The notes under the pieces were generated by a model. The model had not been told where the DNA came from. It did not search any database and was given only the letters and a program-made list of their open reading frames with translations. 64,000 bases of DNA from Dactylosporangium siamense. GTDB lineage: Bacteria; Actinomycetota; Actinomycetes; Mycobacteriales; Micromonosporaceae. The position numbers and the translations under genes are program-made. Of this stretch, positions 34,739 through 40,109 are shown one piece after another. Position 1 is the stretch's first letter, and each line of letters begins with the position of its first letter. The DNA lies in NCBI RefSeq assembly GCF_016862795.1, contig NZ_BONQ01000029.1, forward strand, positions 62,001 to 126,000, read 5' to 3'.

Positions 34739-37255
34739 TCACCAACCGGCACCGAAACAGACCAGCGGCGGCGGGTCCTCGTCCGGGTCGAGCGCACCGA
34801 TCGCGCCGGCCAGCGCCGCTGCCGGCGACAGCCCACCGCGCAGCCCGGTGTGATGCGCGGCCGCGACCCGGCAGGCGATCGCGTCGGACACCAGCGCCAC
34901 CCCCGCGACCACGCTGCCGGCGCCGGCGTGCAGGATCGCGACCGTCATGCCGAGCGTCTCGTCGGCCGGCCGCGCACCGGCCAGCCCGAGCTCGCAGGCG
35001 GACAGCACCACGTGGTGCGGCAGTTTCGCGAGCCGCTCGAACTCGTAGCCGAACAGCGGCCCGTCGCCGAGGACCAGGTGCGAGAACAGGGGGTTGTCGG
35101 GCTCGTGCGTGCCGTGCGCCACGACGTGCAGGATGTCCGCCCGGGCCGCCGCCGCGCGCACGCCCGCGGCGGTCGTCACCGCCGTGGCCGAGCTCGACCA
35201 GACTCCGGCCAGCAGCCCGATCTCCTCCGCGGACCGGGCCAGGTCCGGACCGGCGGCGAACGCGACGACGGGCGCGGCCGGCATCGGCGGGCGTTCATGC
35301 GCCGCGAGCCACGCCGTCACCGACGGGACCACGGCGACGGCCCGGCCCCGCAGCGTCGACATGAGCGTCCACGGCGCCGTCGCCAGTTGCGCCGACGGCG
35401 CGAGCAGCACGGGGCCGTCCTCGACCGCGGCCCGCAACGGGTGCCACAGCGCGGCGTCGAGGCGGGCGAGCGCGGAGCGGCGGCTGGCCCGGATCGTCTC
35501 GCGCACCTGCTTGGGCACCGTCGACAGGGCCAGCAGGTCCAGGTCGCGGCGCAGCCTTCGCTGCGTCTCCAGCACCGGTTCGGCGCTGCCGAGGTCGACC
35601 ACCGACTGGCGCCGCGCCGTGACGACGAGGGCGCACAGCCGGTCCCCCGCGATGAGGTGCGCGACGAACGTCGCCGACGCCGCGCCGAGCCGCTCCCGAA
35701 GCTGCGGCAGCGGCGCCGCGGCGCGCGTCTGCGCCGGTCCCGGCGTATACCAGGAACGCTGCCGGACCAGCTGCTCCAGCTGCGCGCAGCGGACCCGCAA
35801 CCGCGCGTCCACCCGCCCGGCAAGCAGTTGCTCGTGCAGCTCCCGCCGGGCGTGCCGCAGGTCCTCCAGCAGGTCGGCCGCCTCGTCGTTGTCCGGCGGC
35901 AGCACCGGCGGCAGCCGCGCGGACAGGGCCCTGGCGCGCTCCGCCCAGCCGAACACGGTCGCCGGCCGGCCGGTCGACAGAGCCCGGGCGAGGCCGTCCT
36001 CGGCGATGCGGTGGGCGTGGCTGCCGATCGCGGTCTGCAGGTCCAGGCTGCCGAAGGAGGCCTGGTACCGGTGGACGTCGGCCATCGCGGCGCGCCGCTC
36101 CCGGTCGGCGGCGGCGGGCCGGCCGCCCGCGTCGGCGAGCGCCGCCCGGACCGTGCGCGCCTGGAGGCGGGTCGCGATCGGGTCCCGCGCCCGCAACGCG
36201 ATCGCCTGGCCGGCGGCCCGGCGGGCCCGGGCGACCCGGCCTGGCCCGGCACCCGCGAGGGCGGCGAGCGCGGCGGTCAGCCGGCTGCGGCGGGCCTCGT
36301 CGTGCAGGCCCGCGCCCTGCAGCCGGTCGGCCAGCCGGAGCGCCTGGACGGTGGCCGCCCGGTGCATGCCCGCGCCGACCCTGGCGGCGATGGCGACGTG
36401 CCCGGCCAGCATCGCCCAGGCGCTGGTGCCCCGGCCGGCGAACCGGCGGCGGGCCCGCGCCGCCGTGGCCCCCGCGTCGGTCCACCGCTCATCCAGCAGC
36501 GCCAGCTGGGCCTGCCCGAGCTCGGCGACCGCGAGGTCGTGGGTCGAGCGGGCCGCCTGGAACAGGGTCGCCGCCGTGCGCAGCTCGTCGTCCGCCTCCC
36601 GGAACAGCCCGGCGGCGACCAGCGCCTGCGACCGGTCGACGTGGCAGACGCCCGCGTGCAGCGGCGACTGGGTCATCAGCACCGGCGCCACGCCGTCCAT
36701 CATGCGCAGCGCGGTCGGCAGGTCCCCGGCGAGCATCTGCAGGTAGCCGAGGTTGTGGGAGGCCTTGGCGGCGAGGACGTCCAGCTTGTGCCGGGCGGCG
36801 ACCTCCGCGCAGCGGGCGAAGTCCGACCGGGCGGCCCGGTTGCGGCCGCGCTGCATGTTGACGAGCCCCCGGTTGAGCAGGTTTCGGCACATGCCCTCCG
36901 GTTCGGCCTCGCTGAACAGGCCGAGCGCCAGGTCGTAGCTGGCGGCCGCGCGGTTGAGCTCCCCGGCCCGCTGGTACAGCAGCCCGCGCTGGCTGGCCGT
37001 CAGCCCCCGCAGTGCGGCCGGCAGGTCCGGCAGGGAGTCCGCCTCGTCGAGCAGCGCGAGGCCGTCCATCAGCCGGCGCCGCTCCGCCTCGTGATAGGAC
37101 AGGCTGATCAGGATGTGCGCCCGGCGCACCGGATCCGGGTCCCGGGTGAGCGCCCGCTGCAGCAGCACGTACGCCGCCGACCTGCGCCCCCGTTCGGCCT
37201 CGCGCTGTGCCTGCTGGTGCAGTTCGGTAGCGGTCGCCGCGCCCATGGGGGCCAT
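34739..37255 (-). CDS. TPR-CHAT protein (caspase-like cysteine protease)
   Basis: An 838-residue cytosolic protein. Residues 1-430 are helical TPR-like repeats (AYVLLQRALTRDPDPVRRAHILISLSYHEAERR, ASHNLGYLQMLAGDLPTALRMM). A helical linker leads to a C-terminal CHAT domain (about 560-838) with the catalytic His714 in LHVVAHGTHE and Cys754 in VVLSACELG, so the dyad is intact. CHAT proteins belong to the caspase-separase clan and often cleave specific partners. It is the last gene of a four-gene unit with an S8 protease, a small protein and a sigma factor. A strong hairpin (37293-37326) lies upstream. ATG 37255 or 37246 are possible starts. Confidence 0.9.
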   Translation of the reverse strand: MAPMGAATATELHQQAQREAERGRRSAAYVLLQRALTRDPDPVRRAHILISLSYHEAERRRLMDGLALLDEADSLPDLPAALRGLTASQRGLLYQRAGELNRAAASYDLALGLFSEAEPEGMCRNLLNRGLVNMQRGRNRAARSDFARCAEVAARHKLDVLAAKASHNLGYLQMLAGDLPTALRMMDGVAPVLMTQSPLHAGVCHVDRSQALVAAGLFREADDELRTAATLFQAARSTHDLAVAELGQAQLALLDERWTDAGATAARARRRFAGRGTSAWAMLAGHVAIAARVGAGMHRAATVQALRLADRLQGAGLHDEARRSRLTAALAALAGAGPGRVARARRAAGQAIALRARDPIATRLQARTVRAALADAGGRPAAADRERRAAMADVHRYQASFGSLDLQTAIGSHAHRIAEDGLARALSTGRPATVFGWAERARALSARLPPVLPPDNDEAADLLEDLRHARRELHEQLLAGRVDARLRVRCAQLEQLVRQRSWYTPGPAQTRAAAPLPQLRERLGAASATFVAHLIAGDRLCALVVTARRQSVVDLGSAEPVLETQRRLRRDLDLLALSTVPKQVRETIRASRRSALARLDAALWHPLRAAVEDGPVLLAPSAQLATAPWTLMSTLRGRAVAVVPSVTAWLAAHERPPMPAAPVVAFAAGPDLARSAEEIGLLAGVWSSSATAVTTAAGVRAAAARADILHVVAHGTHEPDNPLFSHLVLGDGPLFGYEFERLAKLPHHVVLSACELGLAGARPADETLGMTVAILHAGAGSVVAGVALVSDAIACRVAAAHHTGLRGGLSPAAALAGAIGALDPDEDPPPLVCFGAGW

Positions 37256-37292
37256 TGTGCGCCAGTGCGTTGTCGCGGCGGCACAGGGGCGC

Positions 37293-37326
37293 GCCGTTCC
37301 CGGCCGGTGGCCCGGCCGGGAACGGC
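37293..37326 (-). terminator. Strong hairpin between S8 and CHAT genes
   Basis: GCCGTTCCCGGCCGG (37293-37307) and CCGGCCGGGAACGGC (37312-37326) form a perfect 15-bp stem with a 4-base loop. It begins 11 bases after the S8 stop codon and ends 38 bases before the CHAT start. It may be a partial terminator, an attenuator or an RNA stabiliser that sets the ratio of the two proteases. Confidence 0.7.
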
Positions 37327-37336
37327 TCCGGACGGG

Positions 37337-38968
37337 CTACCTCGCGATGACCTGCCGGACCGCCTCGCTGCGCAGCTTGATCTGCTGCAGGTCGAGGGCG
37401 CCCAACGCGGCGAGCCGCTTCGCGATCCGGCCGGCGACCACGGGCGTGGCGAACGACGTGCCCGAGCCGATCGCGAACCCGCTCGAGAAGTCGTCCGGGT
37501 CCACGCTGGCGCGGTCCTGGCTGGAAGCCTCGTCCCTGGTCCGCGCGCTCGCCTGCAGGCTGAACTGGAAGTCCTCCGGCATCGTGCTGACCAGCGCGGC
37601 GCCGCACGCCCACGCGGTGACCCACGCGCCCGTGTTGCTGAACATCGCCACCGTCCTGCCGTCCGGGTTGAGCGCGCCGACACTCACCACGGGCACCCCG
37701 TCCCACTGGTACCTGCCCGGCTCGGCGAGCGCGGCCGGGTAGTTCTCCCGGGCCGTGCAGTCGTTTCCGGCGGACATGACCACCACGACACCGAGCGCGG
37801 TCAGCGTCCGCAGCGACGAATACAGGGCGTTCGTCGCGGCGACGTCGTCGGGGTCCTCGTGGTAGTGACCCATCGAGATCGACACGACGTCGACCGGGTC
37901 GCCGCCCTTGACCATCGCGGTGATCTGGTTGACGGCCGCGATCAGGTTGCTCTCCGGGATCGTGCCGTCAGCCTCGATCACCGGGATCGCGATGATGTCC
38001 GCCTCGGGGCACACCTGCCGCACCAGACCGCAGATGAACGTGCCGTGCCCGGCGAGCGGGTCGCGGAGCCCGTCCAGCGGCCGGTTCGCCGCACCCCGGT
38101 ACTCCCTCGGCGCCGTGGCGGCGCCGGCGCCCGCCTTCTGCAGCGGCGTCCACCGCACCTTGGCCAGCCACTGATGCTCACCGCAGCCGGTGTCCACGAC
38201 GGCAACGACCGGCACACGCCGGGCCGGCGGCTCCAGATCCGGATCGCATGGTCCGTCCGGTCCTGGCCTGGTCGACGCCGGCAGGGCCGCCTCCGGTCCG
38301 GCCGGTTCCGGTCCCGTCGGTGCGGGGAGGTCCAGCACCAGCGCGATCGGTCGCGGGCCGCTGTAGGCCAGATCGGCGTACGGATGCGGCGAGTCGAACG
38401 GGTGCGGCGAGTCGAACGGATGTGGCGAGTCGAACGGTGCCGGACGGTACGGCTGGATCGACATCAGGTGGTCCAACCCGACACCGGGCAGGCGTGGATA
38501 GCCGGGCCCGTCCAGTCTCGCGGCCGGGTCCGGGTCGGCGAGCCGCCGGGCCCGCTGCAGCACCGTCCAGGCGTCGACGTTGACCGCGTTGCCCTCCGAT
38601 GTCGGCGCCAACCGCATCGTGAACGTGGTGACCCCGCCGTCGGAGCCGTCCGTGCGGTCCGCGGTGTCGGCGGTGAGCTCGGCAACGGTGTCACAGGTGG
38701 CGTCAAGACCGACGTCGCGGGCGGCGGTGCAGAGCAGGTCCACGACGGTCGGCCGCCACTCGGCCCGTGCCCGGCTCCAGCTCGTCGGTGGTTCGGTCGT
38801 GATCAGCAGCCGGTCCGCCAGGTAGACGGTCGGGCGGATGCGCTGCCCCGGGAACAGCGGGGCGGTCAGGGGATCGAGCAGCCGGGCACCGTAGCGGGAC
38901 AGGATCTCCGCACCCGGCATGACTGGGTCGTAGTCGGACTCAGGTCCGTCCGATCGGGGCGTCGTCAT
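37337..38968 (-). CDS. S8 family (subtilisin-like) serine protease, apparently cytosolic
   Basis: A 543-residue protein without a signal peptide. The subtilase core occupies about residues 250-520 with the catalytic triad Asp259 (VAVVDTGCG), His308 (AGHGTFICG) and Ser505 (GSGTSFATP), and oxyanion Asn402 (SAGND). The N-terminal 240 residues are a family-specific region that may act as prodomain or partner-binding part. They end in three FDSPHP repeats (residues 179-196) and a Pro-rich linker. It sits between a small beta-rich gene (26 bases upstream) and the CHAT gene. A cytosolic subtilase paired with a CHAT protease suggests a regulated proteolytic cascade. Confidence 0.9.
   Translation of the reverse strand: MTTPRSDGPESDYDPVMPGAEILSRYGARLLDPLTAPLFPGQRIRPTVYLADRLLITTEPPTSWSRARAEWRPTVVDLLCTAARDVGLDATCDTVAELTADTADRTDGSDGGVTTFTMRLAPTSEGNAVNVDAWTVLQRARRLADPDPAARLDGPGYPRLPGVGLDHLMSIQPYRPAPFDSPHPFDSPHPFDSPHPYADLAYSGPRPIALVLDLPAPTGPEPAGPEAALPASTRPGPDGPCDPDLEPPARRVPVVAVVDTGCGEHQWLAKVRWTPLQKAGAGAATAPREYRGAANRPLDGLRDPLAGHGTFICGLVRQVCPEADIIAIPVIEADGTIPESNLIAAVNQITAMVKGGDPVDVVSISMGHYHEDPDDVAATNALYSSLRTLTALGVVVVMSAGNDCTARENYPAALAEPGRYQWDGVPVVSVGALNPDGRTVAMFSNTGAWVTAWACGAALVSTMPEDFQFSLQASARTRDEASSQDRASVDPDDFSSGFAIGSGTSFATPVVAGRIAKRLAALGALDLQQIKLRSEAVRQVIAR
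38381..38434 (-). repeat. Three 18-bp coding repeats (FDSPHP) in the S8 protease
   Basis: Three consecutive 18-base units at 38381, 38399 and 38417 encode FDSPHP three times just before the Pro-rich linker of the S8 protease. They differ from each other at one or two bases. Confidence 0.9.
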
Positions 38969-38994
38969 CGTGTGGTCTCCAGACTCGAGCGAGG

Positions 38995-39456
38995 TCAGAT
39001 CGAAATCGCCGGTGTCGCCACCGGATGGTCGAGGCGCACCGCGGCGCCCGCCGTCGGCTCGACGGTGAAATGCACGAACCCACCGGCCACGTCCACGAAT
39101 GCGAACCGGCCGTCCTCATCAGCAGTCTCCTCCAGCACGCCCTGGGCGCCGTGCAGGCACACCCGCAACGCTGCTGACGGACTGATCCACCCGTCGACCC
39201 GGCGGCGCTGCCGCAGCCGCCCGTCGGAGACCGTGATGGTCAACGCCAGCCGCTGCGACTCGAAGATGACCGTGTCGGTCACTTCCGTGGTGCGCGCTCC
39301 CGCCCCGGTCAGCGCCGACTGGAAGACCATCAGCTCGACGTCCGGTTGCTCCAGGCCCAGCCGGAACAGCACCCGCTCGGCGAGATCCGGCGGGCACGGA
39401 TCGGTGCGCTCCCACATGGTGCGCATGGCGGCCAACAGCTGCTCATCAGGACTCAT
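38995..39456 (-). CDS. Small protein between sigma factor and S8 protease (possible sigma partner)
   Basis: A 153-residue protein. The first 45 residues are helical (SPDEQLLAAMRTMWERTDPCPPDLAERVLFRLGL), and the rest is beta-rich with VDGWISPSAALRVCLHGAQGVLEETADEDGRFAFVDVAGG, resembling carboxypeptidase-regulatory-like/transthyretin-type sandwiches. No membrane helix is present. ATG 39456 overlaps the sigma-factor stop by 4 bases (ATGA), the usual sign of a sigma/anti-sigma or obligate partner pair. It could be an anti-sigma factor or the substrate of one of the downstream proteases; neither is shown by sequence alone. Confidence 0.78.
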   Translation of the reverse strand: MSPDEQLLAAMRTMWERTDPCPPDLAERVLFRLGLEQPDVELMVFQSALTGAGARTTEVTDTVIFESQRLALTITVSDGRLRQRRRVDGWISPSAALRVCLHGAQGVLEETADEDGRFAFVDVAGGFVHFTVEPTAGAAVRLDHPVATPAISI

Positions 39457-40109
39457 TGGTCGCTCCATTCCGGATCGCCGTCGAGATTGCGGCGCAACTT
39501 CTCCAGGCACCGGCCCCTGGTCGGCCCGATCGCACCGACCGGCATGTCCATCTCGGCGGACAACGTGGCGTAGTCCGGCCGCTCGGCGAAGGCGATCACG
39601 CGCAGCAGCCGCCGGCAGCGCTCGGGCAGCTCCGCGACGTGGTGCCAGAGCCGCGCGACGCTGCTGTGCAGGACGACCTCGACCGCGGGGTCCGGCGACC
39701 CGTCGATCTCCCCGTCCACCCGCAGCAGGTCGGCCGGCCGCTCCCGCAGCCCGTGCCGGGTCACCCGCCACGCCTCCCGCCGAGCGACGGTGGTGATCCA
39801 ACGGCCCACGGCGTGCGGCTCGCGGACGGTGCCCGCCTTGCCCATGACCGCCAGCCAGGTCGTCTGGACGACGTCCTCCGCCTCCGCGCGGTCCAGCCCG
39901 TACGCCCGCACGACCTGCCACAGCACCGGCGTCAGCAGCCGGACGAGCCGGTCCAGCGCCTCGCGGTCGCCGCGATCCCGCCAGTCGCCGAACGCCTGCG
40001 CCACGGCGTCCCAGATCGGAGCGTCGCCGCCGACGATCGGAGCCCCCGGAACGGGGGCGTCGCGTTGCATCACGCACACAGGTGTGCCGGCGGGGGCCTC
40101 CTGATACAT
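39453..40109 (-). CDS. ECF-like sigma-70 family RNA polymerase sigma factor
   Basis: A roughly 218-residue sigma factor. Region 2 is LDRLVRLLTPVLWQVVRAYGLDRAEAEDVVQTTWLAVM and region 4 is LWHHVAELPERCRRLLRVIAFAERPDYATLSAEMDMPVGAIGPTRGRCLEKLRR. It is the first gene of the module with the small protein, S8 protease and CHAT protease. ATG 40109 lies 10 bases from an AT-rich patch (about 40119-40136) that is probably the promoter, giving a near-leaderless message. ATG 40070 (MQRDAPV) is a credible alternative start. The reading frame upstream is antisense to the oxidoreductase gene. Confidence 0.88.
   Translation of the reverse strand: MYQEAPAGTPVCVMQRDAPVPGAPIVGGDAPIWDAVAQAFGDWRDRGDREALDRLVRLLTPVLWQVVRAYGLDRAEAEDVVQTTWLAVMGKAGTVREPHAVGRWITTVARREAWRVTRHGLRERPADLLRVDGEIDGSPDPAVEVVLHSSVARLWHHVAELPERCRRLLRVIAFAERPDYATLSAEMDMPVGAIGPTRGRCLEKLRRNLDGDPEWSDQ

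Follow-up and report, generated by a model that had tools for sequence, protein, structure and literature searches.

A sigma factor gene linked to a subtilase and a TPR-CHAT protease in Dactylosporangium siamense: a putative repeat-tethered two-protease cascade

We analyzed a 64,000-nucleotide stretch of the Dactylosporangium siamense genome (hereafter the window; contig NZ_BONQ01000029.1, positions 62,001 to 126,000), in which four minus-strand genes encode, in this order, an extracytoplasmic function (ECF) sigma factor, a small protein, a subtilase of family S8 and a tetratricopeptide repeat (TPR) protein with a CHAT protease domain; all four open reading frames (ORFs) are real and intact. 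Our leading reading, a tentative one to which we give a little less than even credence, is an autoregulated cascade of ECF54 type in which two cytosolic proteases, tethered through repeats in the subtilase, would free the sigma factor. The computed evidence consists of the linkage of the genes, the intact catalytic residues, the zymogen-like architecture of the S8 protein, the selection acting on its linker repeats, the co-divergence of these repeats with the TPR region of the CHAT protein specifically, and a promoter-like motif upstream of the module.

Gene set in the window and its conservation

The genes and the elements discussed below lie at the following window coordinates:

39453..40070, minus strand: ECF sigma factor, 205 aa with the corrected start (Pfam Sigma70_r2, start correction)
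38995..39456, minus strand: small protein, 153 aa; the predicted model has two N-terminal helices, a low-confidence linker (36-56) and a beta-sandwich
37337..38968, minus strand: S8 subtilase, 543 aa, triad D259, H308 and S505; predicted zymogen
38459..38911, minus strand: S8 N-terminal domain, residues 20-170 of the predicted model, aligning from residue 45 with subtilisin-type prodomains
38380..38437, minus strand: S8 hexapeptide repeats (HPFDSP) in the prodomain-protease linker, tandem, 18-bp unit x3.2
38345..38359, minus strand: S8 residues 204-208, GPRPI (family GRxPV), at the prodomain/mature junction position; proposed activating cleavage
37370..38212, minus strand: S8 catalytic domain, residues 253-533 (Pfam)
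34739..37255, minus strand: TPR-CHAT protease, 838 aa, dyad H714 and C754 (Pfam, alignment)
36416..37195, minus strand: CHAT residues 21-280, N-terminal TPR region, co-diverging with the S8 repeat unit
34793..35473, minus strand: CHAT protease domain, residues 595-821 (Pfam; PDB match 7zoq_A)
39292..39294, minus strand: codon of small-protein Arg55, in the low-confidence linker; proposed cleavage site
40080..40107, minus strand: putative sigma-dependent promoter GTATCAG-N16-CACCT, with one mismatch to the family -10 element CTCCT

Pfam assigned Sigma70_r2 to the sigma protein (E 2.2e-9), Peptidase_S8 to residues 253-533 of the S8 protein (E 1.6e-21) and CHAT to residues 595-821 of the CHAT protein (E 2.1e-23). 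Its TPR matches in the CHAT protein were weak and below cut-off, the best at 89-113; a 30-protein CHAT profile matched TPR structures over about positions 57-237, and the sole PDB sequence match of the C-terminal part was 7zoq_A, 'TPR-CHAT' (E 0.0019). The small protein had no match up to E 1 in Pfam, NCBIfam or PADLOC. A first-pass annotation of this DNA, made from the sequence alone, had described four genes on one strand with both proteases catalytically intact, and this description held: Asp259, His308 and Ser505 are kept in 45/45 aligned S8 proteins, and His714 together with Cys754 in 39/40 CHAT proteins, the remaining one being truncated by a contig end. In a second set the CHAT dyad is present in 14/14, the S8 His and Ser in 11/11 and the S8 Asp in 9/11, two proteins being incomplete. 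The earlier statement that the proteases lack signal peptides agrees with our inspection, by which, no signal-peptide program being run, no hydrophobic N-terminal signal stretch was seen, and the reported 4-base overlap of the sigma stop with the small-protein start was confirmed at positions 39453-39456.

The linkage of the four genes is far above chance. In the 53 named loci that span 15 kb or more, all four genes are present in 49 and the order sigma-small-S8-CHAT in 48; the four exceptions comprise two loci with S8-sigma-small, one with S8-CHAT and one with small-S8-CHAT. Shorter named loci hold all four genes in 10/27 cases, and the module-bearing names include Nocardioides, Microbacterium, Marmoricola, Cellulomonas and Leekyejoonella. 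The named loci were selected via the S8 gene; they nevertheless form the better test of linkage, because the small-protein profile, which at E at most 1e-30 matched 43/43 S8-positive and 15/206 S8-negative genomes, was built from many of the tested loci and is partly circular. This gene-neighbourhood check had been put forward in the first-pass annotation as a refutation test, and the module came through it, with the CHAT dyad conserved as well.

Within the order of the window organism, S8 is present in 43/249 genomes, and the first locus set comprised 40 stretches around the S8 genes of these genomes and the other S8 copies of the window genome. All four genes were found in 28/40 stretches, in orders that include sigma-small-S8-CHAT, S8-sigma-small-CHAT and S8-S8-sigma-small-CHAT-CHAT. 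Of the other 12, seven have just S8-CHAT, one of these lying at a contig end; three have S8-sigma-small, two of them likewise at contig ends; one has S8-small-CHAT and one has S8 alone. A phylum sample outside the order gave 8/396 genomes past a strict cut, the window genome included, and all four genes occur in six of the seven other loci, the seventh (L146) being without a called sigma (our own labels are L for loci, G for genomes, C for contigs, f for families and g for genera). Genomes of family f15, genus g20, keep the sigma-small pair apart from the S8-CHAT pair, and the 4-base overlap was found in 6/6 distant sigma-small pairs examined (G014 was examined on the sigma-small side, and G235 also carries a complete set). 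Over 73 sigma-small pairs, the overlap is of 4 bases in 47, of 1 base in 6, and other or unresolved in 20.

Elsewhere in the window genome there are four further S8 matches on contigs C118, C154 and C52 (L043-L046), three of which adjoin a CHAT gene; L046 also has sigma and small-protein genes, its CHAT gene being divergent, and the genome holds nine CHAT matches in all. A possible case of S8 decay was seen in G135, where contig C226 (L164, L165) carries, together with the small protein, two fragments of S8, one of them interrupted by an internal TAG.

The S8 linker, the CHAT TPR region and the promoter motif

The S8 protein, as modelled, resembles a zymogen whose prodomain is of the subtilisin type. 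Its AlphaFold2 model (mean predicted local distance difference test score, pLDDT, 74) has an alpha/beta domain at the N-terminus, joined to the protease by a linker of low confidence, and aligns with PCSK9 (6u2f_A) over 302 residues (Z 27.4, root-mean-square deviation 3.4, model 45-543) and with unprocessed pro-subtilisin E (3whi_B) over 283 residues (Z 26.6, model 51-543). PCSK9 and pro-subtilisin E chains that contain the prodomain gave about 283-307 aligned residues, versus about 217-233 for mature-only PCSK9 chains; both the prodomain and the subtilase fold superpose on the S8 model, and no prodomain family was found in S8 by Pfam. S8 residues 206-208 superpose on PCSK9 153-155, and mature PCSK9 begins at Ser153, the position on which the conserved S8 motif GRxPV, around residue 205, comes to lie; an Arg lies within S8 columns 203-206 in 119/130 S8 proteins. 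Unlike these relatives, the window S8 has no visible signal peptide, and to our knowledge no tandem hexapeptide linker occurs in pro-subtilisins or PCSK9.

Tandem repeats were scored in the S8 linker of 112/134 proteins (family f4 loci with longer repeats counting as misses), compared with 0/134 shuffles and 1/134 control windows; after duplicate removal the count is 109/130. The period is six in 104 of the 112 repeat-bearing proteins, with two to eight copies, the window S8 carrying HPFDSP about three times. The 87 distinct unit strings, some of them mutual rotations, vary by lineage around a shared core N/S/H-P-F/Y, and 0/102 units recurred in another called gene of the same locus. Only 27/330 adjacent units share the same DNA sequence, and the differences between adjacent units number 688 synonymous and 235 nonsynonymous, the expected synonymous fraction being 0.26. 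In 92 longer arrays, comparison of the inner units showed differences at 554/1131 fourfold sites (49%), as against 52/4296 sites (1.2%) at codon positions 1 and 2. Amino-acid identity of units is 99.3% within proteins and 38.5% between them, the former value being partly by construction, as arrays were chosen by adjacent units differing at no more than two residues; the weight rests on the contrast with synonymous sites, the first and last unit of each array being excluded. Since synonymous sites diverge while the amino acids stay fixed, slippage alone is insufficient and selection keeps the copies alike. Some repeat and co-divergence counts contained a few duplicated proteins, one genome being in two collections; after removal of four S8 proteins, three small proteins and two loci, the recomputed main counts were the same in sense, and the 330-unit DNA counts, the 49%/1.2% array contrast and the 62-locus, 74-locus and column analyses are given as before removal.

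The repeat unit co-diverges with the N-terminal TPR third of the CHAT protein, not with its protease part. Inter-unit distances were correlated with distances between protein segments, without tree-based correction. Over 72 distinct loci, r was 0.66 for CHAT 1-280 (partial r, controlling for the rest of CHAT, 0.53; permutation p 0.001), 0.50 for CHAT 281-560 (partial -0.14) and 0.48 for CHAT 561-838 (partial -0.04), the mean divergence of the first two segments being equal (0.615 and 0.619). With one locus per distinct unit (47), the partial values for the three segments were 0.42, -0.13 and -0.02. CHAT 1-280 was also the best correlate of the unit among 62 four-gene loci (r 0.71; partial given sigma 0.55), and all other segments, apart from the S8 catalytic domain discussed below, gave partial values of 0.17-0.25 given sigma. 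When 40-residue windows were taken in 74 loci, the partial correlation given the S8 catalytic domain was 0.13 to 0.31 within CHAT 21-280 and -0.20 to 0.17 for windows starting at 281 or later. In bootstraps, r for the TPR region exceeded that for the CHAT domain by 0.12-0.23 and that for the S8 catalytic domain by 0.04-0.12. Because the unit and the TPR region co-diverge, we infer that the repeats tether S8 to CHAT, the S8 linker presumably docking on the TPR region. The zymogen-like model, the repeats and the co-divergence add evidence for the first-pass suggestion that the subtilase is a target or co-executor of CHAT.

The pattern GTATCA-N15..17-C[TA]C[CT]T has its sole match on either strand of the 64 kb window at 40107-40080. 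The first-pass sigma start, 40109, overlaps this conserved promoter-like motif, and for that reason the start is likely the next ATG, at 40070, which gives 205 aa. Upstream of named modules, GTATCA-N16-CTCCT was found in 57/70 regions with the relaxed and 55/70 with the strict pattern (shuffle expectation 0.0); this test omitted five apparent duplicate loci (L175 being unchecked against a G genome) and loci with fewer than 330 bases before the first module gene. The pattern was derived from the first loci, in which it matched 24/38 upstream regions when relaxed and 16/38 when strict (two of the 40 loci being dropped for too little upstream DNA); the named loci belong mostly to other families and had already been inspected before the counted test. 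A further site lies no more than 150 bp past the CHAT stop in 34/55 loci (expectation 0.02). Across 28 module genomes the strict pattern gave 162 matches versus 35 for the reversed pattern, 27/28 genomes having a match, and in the window genome TGTATCAG alone gave 116 matches versus 40 reversed. The module's own sigma factor presumably uses this motif.

A tentative cascade, its alternatives and known systems

In the cascade that we tentatively favor, the N-terminal TPR region of CHAT would bind the tandem hexapeptides of the S8 zymogen linker and hold both proteins together. A signal reaching the TPR protein would activate CHAT, which would then cut after conserved arginines in flexible segments: a cut in the small protein at LAGVR55/G would free a held sigma factor, and a cut at the S8 prodomain junction GR/xPV would unlock the executor protease. 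The free sigma factor would transcribe its own module from GTATCA-N16-CTCCT promoters and, in several lineages, extra genes too. We infer the physical docking, the cleavage sites and their cutter, the anti-sigma role, the trigger and the use of the motif by the sigma factor. Arg55 of the small protein is Arg in 116/120 distinct sequences (family consensus LAGVRG) and lies inside the low-confidence stretch 36-56 of the model. It is retained in 8/9 assessable genomes without S8 (the exception, G055, has His; G066 was left out), and the proposed cut therefore fits CHAT rather than S8 as the cutter. The small protein may be both a sigma partner and a protease substrate or adaptor; the gene coupling and the predicted two-helix N-terminus are the features that bear on the first-pass idea that it may hold the sigma factor.

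Several observations weigh against this reading, besides the absence of tree-based correction. The S8 catalytic domain ranks second, after CHAT 1-280, in its correlation with the unit (r 0.62, partial given sigma 0.36), and column co-variation extends beyond the TPR region: of the 40 top columns, 19 fall in 1-280, which holds 256 of the 723 testable columns. No repeat was scored in 21/130 S8 proteins, several of which nevertheless carry imperfect or longer repeats. S8 is not essential to the set: of the 15 genomes in which the first search gave a strong match for the small protein and none for S8, 10 were still without S8 at a looser cut, and L151, a locus of an S8-less genome, holds sigma-small-CHAT. 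Most of the genomes that retain Arg55 without S8 are closely related, several being near-identical, and in family f4 the arginine is displaced by two residues. L043, L148 and L149 have a small protein together with S8 and CHAT, apart from sigma, and the small protein is therefore not solely an anti-sigma factor; the partial distance correlation of sigma with the small protein is the lowest of the six among the four proteins (0.09), all of these values being confounded by protein length. A search for structural relatives of the small protein gave nothing significant (best Foldseek E 0.027), nor did the small-protein profile have a sequence match below E 0.02 among PDB chains. Finally, the window genome has little excess of the strict pattern (4 matches versus 2 reversed).

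The strongest alternative is the published idea for ECF54, a group whose genomic context, according to the accessible text of a 2022 review, includes carboxypeptidase, subtilase and CHAT genes, with a model member from Geodermatophilus and proteolytic regulation proposed (PMC8999054). Here there would be no anti-sigma factor: the proteases would degrade or process sigma directly, and the small protein would be a carboxypeptidase-regulatory-like adaptor or substrate. The text of the review, the occurrence of the small protein without sigma and the low sigma-small partial correlation speak for it, whereas the coupling of the sigma and small-protein genes (4-base overlap in 47/73 pairs) and their persistence as pairs where the module is split (6/6 distant f15 g20 loci) speak against it, and we consider it somewhat unlikely. 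The window module resembles ECF54 in having a sigma gene beside subtilase and CHAT genes, an assignment made by gene neighbourhood; the small protein, with its predicted beta-sandwich and no Pfam match, is probably the 'carboxypeptidase' (regulatory-like) entry of that context. In view of this published context, the first-pass statement that no described system of exactly this composition was known is not supported. The accessible text of the review mentions no promoter motif, zymogen or repeat tether (PMC8999054); new here for the module, relative to that text, are the promoter-like motif, the tandem linker hexapeptides, the co-divergence of their unit with the CHAT TPR region and, as a reading of the predicted model, the zymogen. 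A literature search found no experiment on the ECF54 module, the two primary ECF54 papers, which may themselves report a motif, lying outside its reach, and as far as found the widespread actinobacterial CHAT/S8/sigma module had only a genome-context description.

A phage-defence or cell-suicide system, in which the TPR region of CHAT senses infection and both proteases kill the cell, appears unlikely. TPR-CHAT proteases do act in type III-E CRISPR systems, as described in the accessible text of PMC10028731. An S8 paralogue stands behind genes of 1380 aa and 114 aa that by eye resemble a trypsin-type conflict system (L052:3531-9697), and a GTATCA...CTCCT site lies 55 bp before a gene for the conflict-system component EACC1 (G030:C1 near 694500-696700, L102), which may be chance. 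Against this, the module of family f2 sits stably in the core chromosome, between rplA (preceded by nusG and rplK) and rplJ-rplL (genes named by Pfam in L048), families f4 and f15 have other recurring neighbours, and a PADLOC search of the window genes gave only weak partial matches (best E 0.0018). Because of the core siting in f2, a mobile phage-defence island is disfavoured, and a defence role stays compatible; the phage response suggested in the first-pass annotation is weakened accordingly.

Two further readings concern the hexapeptides as peptides. TPR receptors of the RRNPP and arbitrium systems pair with lineage-specific peptides of 5-8 residues, and the S8 linker could be a multi-copy peptide key read by the CHAT TPR lock; on activation the linker may be cut to release hexapeptides as a self-made signal for the TPR protein. 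We hold this distinctly doubtful. If true, it would be a protease-embedded counterpart of arbitrium or RRNPP peptides, with the difference that the window peptide is repeated inside a protease partner. Quite improbable is a multi-copy peptide precursor, in which processing of the linker would free hexapeptides as ligands for the CHAT TPR region or for another TPR receptor. The two to eight near-identical copies, the lineage-specific units, the selection for identity, the TPR co-divergence and the known receptors fit such a precursor; however, no export signal is visible, the unit is absent from the other called genes of the locus, and multivalent docking of the intact linker accounts for the same data with fewer steps. 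That the hexapeptides are merely a flexible spacer enlarged by DNA slippage, as the low model confidence of the linker and the variable copy number might suggest, is very improbable, given the rarity of DNA-identical adjacent units, the contrast of strongly differing synonymous sites with fixed amino acids, which already contradicts slippage, and the co-divergence with the TPR region.

Among known systems, the best account may be a repeat-tethered cascade close in logic to that of Csx29, Csx30 and CASP-sigma, with an added zymogen. In Craspase (type III-E CRISPR), according to the accessible text, the TPR-CHAT protein Csx29 cleaves Csx30, which inhibits CASP-sigma (PMC10028731). The likeness lies in a TPR-CHAT protein with a His/Cys dyad, the C-terminal part of the window CHAT having 7zoq as its only PDB sequence match, and, as proposed here, in a sigma-inhibiting partner whose cleavage would relieve the inhibition. 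The window module differs by its S8 zymogen and by a small protein of 153 aa, compared with 565 aa for Csx30 (PMC10028731). Csx30 was not among the PDB chains listed for the small-protein profile up to E 10, and the window CHAT scored 23.2 bits in the Csx29 family model NF041237, whose cut-off is 300. CalpL-type type III CRISPR cascades employ, in place of the TPR-CHAT and S8 proteases, a protease of SAVED/Lon type that cyclic oligoadenylate switches on. The likeness is protease signalling around a sigma factor in defence (accessible text of PMC11417357). EACC2 caspase conflict systems likewise associate a predicted caspase, TPR and an ECF sigma factor, with another constant component and, in the accessible text, no S8 and CHAT pair (PMC8195603).

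The module offers a layout-similar counterpart of the Craspase-sigma switch. The proposed tether suggests a wiring that can be tested, in which one protease carries a lineage-specific peptide address, apparently matched to the TPR region of the other, and the repeats are natural tandem tags for studying the co-evolution of TPR proteins with short peptides.

Further motif sites and neighbouring genes

A promoter motif would make the module's regulon readable from genomes. In 40 stretches around sites outside the module, ten of which were compared with Pfam, the next genes by eye mostly vary among genomes; a 134/135-aa gene without known identity and a decarboxylase recur in one genus (L099, L106). 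Given this variation, and as the L099/L106 recurrences are unproven, a regulon outside the module is not claimed.

In many Microbacterium loci (e.g. L213, L239), a motif site stands about 22 bp past CHAT, and the next 175 nt or so hold no convincing ORF. This stretch has strong hairpins (over 22 loci the mean folding z is -2.1, versus -0.3 over 12 others) and is a candidate for a sigma-dependent small RNA; Rfam gave no match above cut-offs for L225, the single Microbacterium locus tried. A conserved fifth gene of about 100 aa, with the promoter motif upstream, follows CHAT in L180 (13011-13304) and six more Nocardioides loci. Two of three such genes tested had no Pfam match, the third having a weak ORF126-like match below cut-off, and a resemblance to I42 seen by eye was dropped after a profile comparison probability of 0.1. 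An I42 chagasin-family inhibitor (PF09394, E 1.9e-16 and 5.1e-15) directly precedes sigma-small at 405-719 in both L123 and L124; it was not seen in the four remaining f15 g20 sigma-small loci that were read, one of which is truncated by a contig end, and was rejected as a regular partner.

The extra motif targets vary by lineage. Several family f2 genomes have a second motif site directed away from the module, and the divergent gene is of the HopA1 family (PF17914) in five loci (L015, L061, L062, L065 and L110), in four of which a motif site faces it; in L144 an APH-type kinase gene takes the place of the HopA1-family gene.

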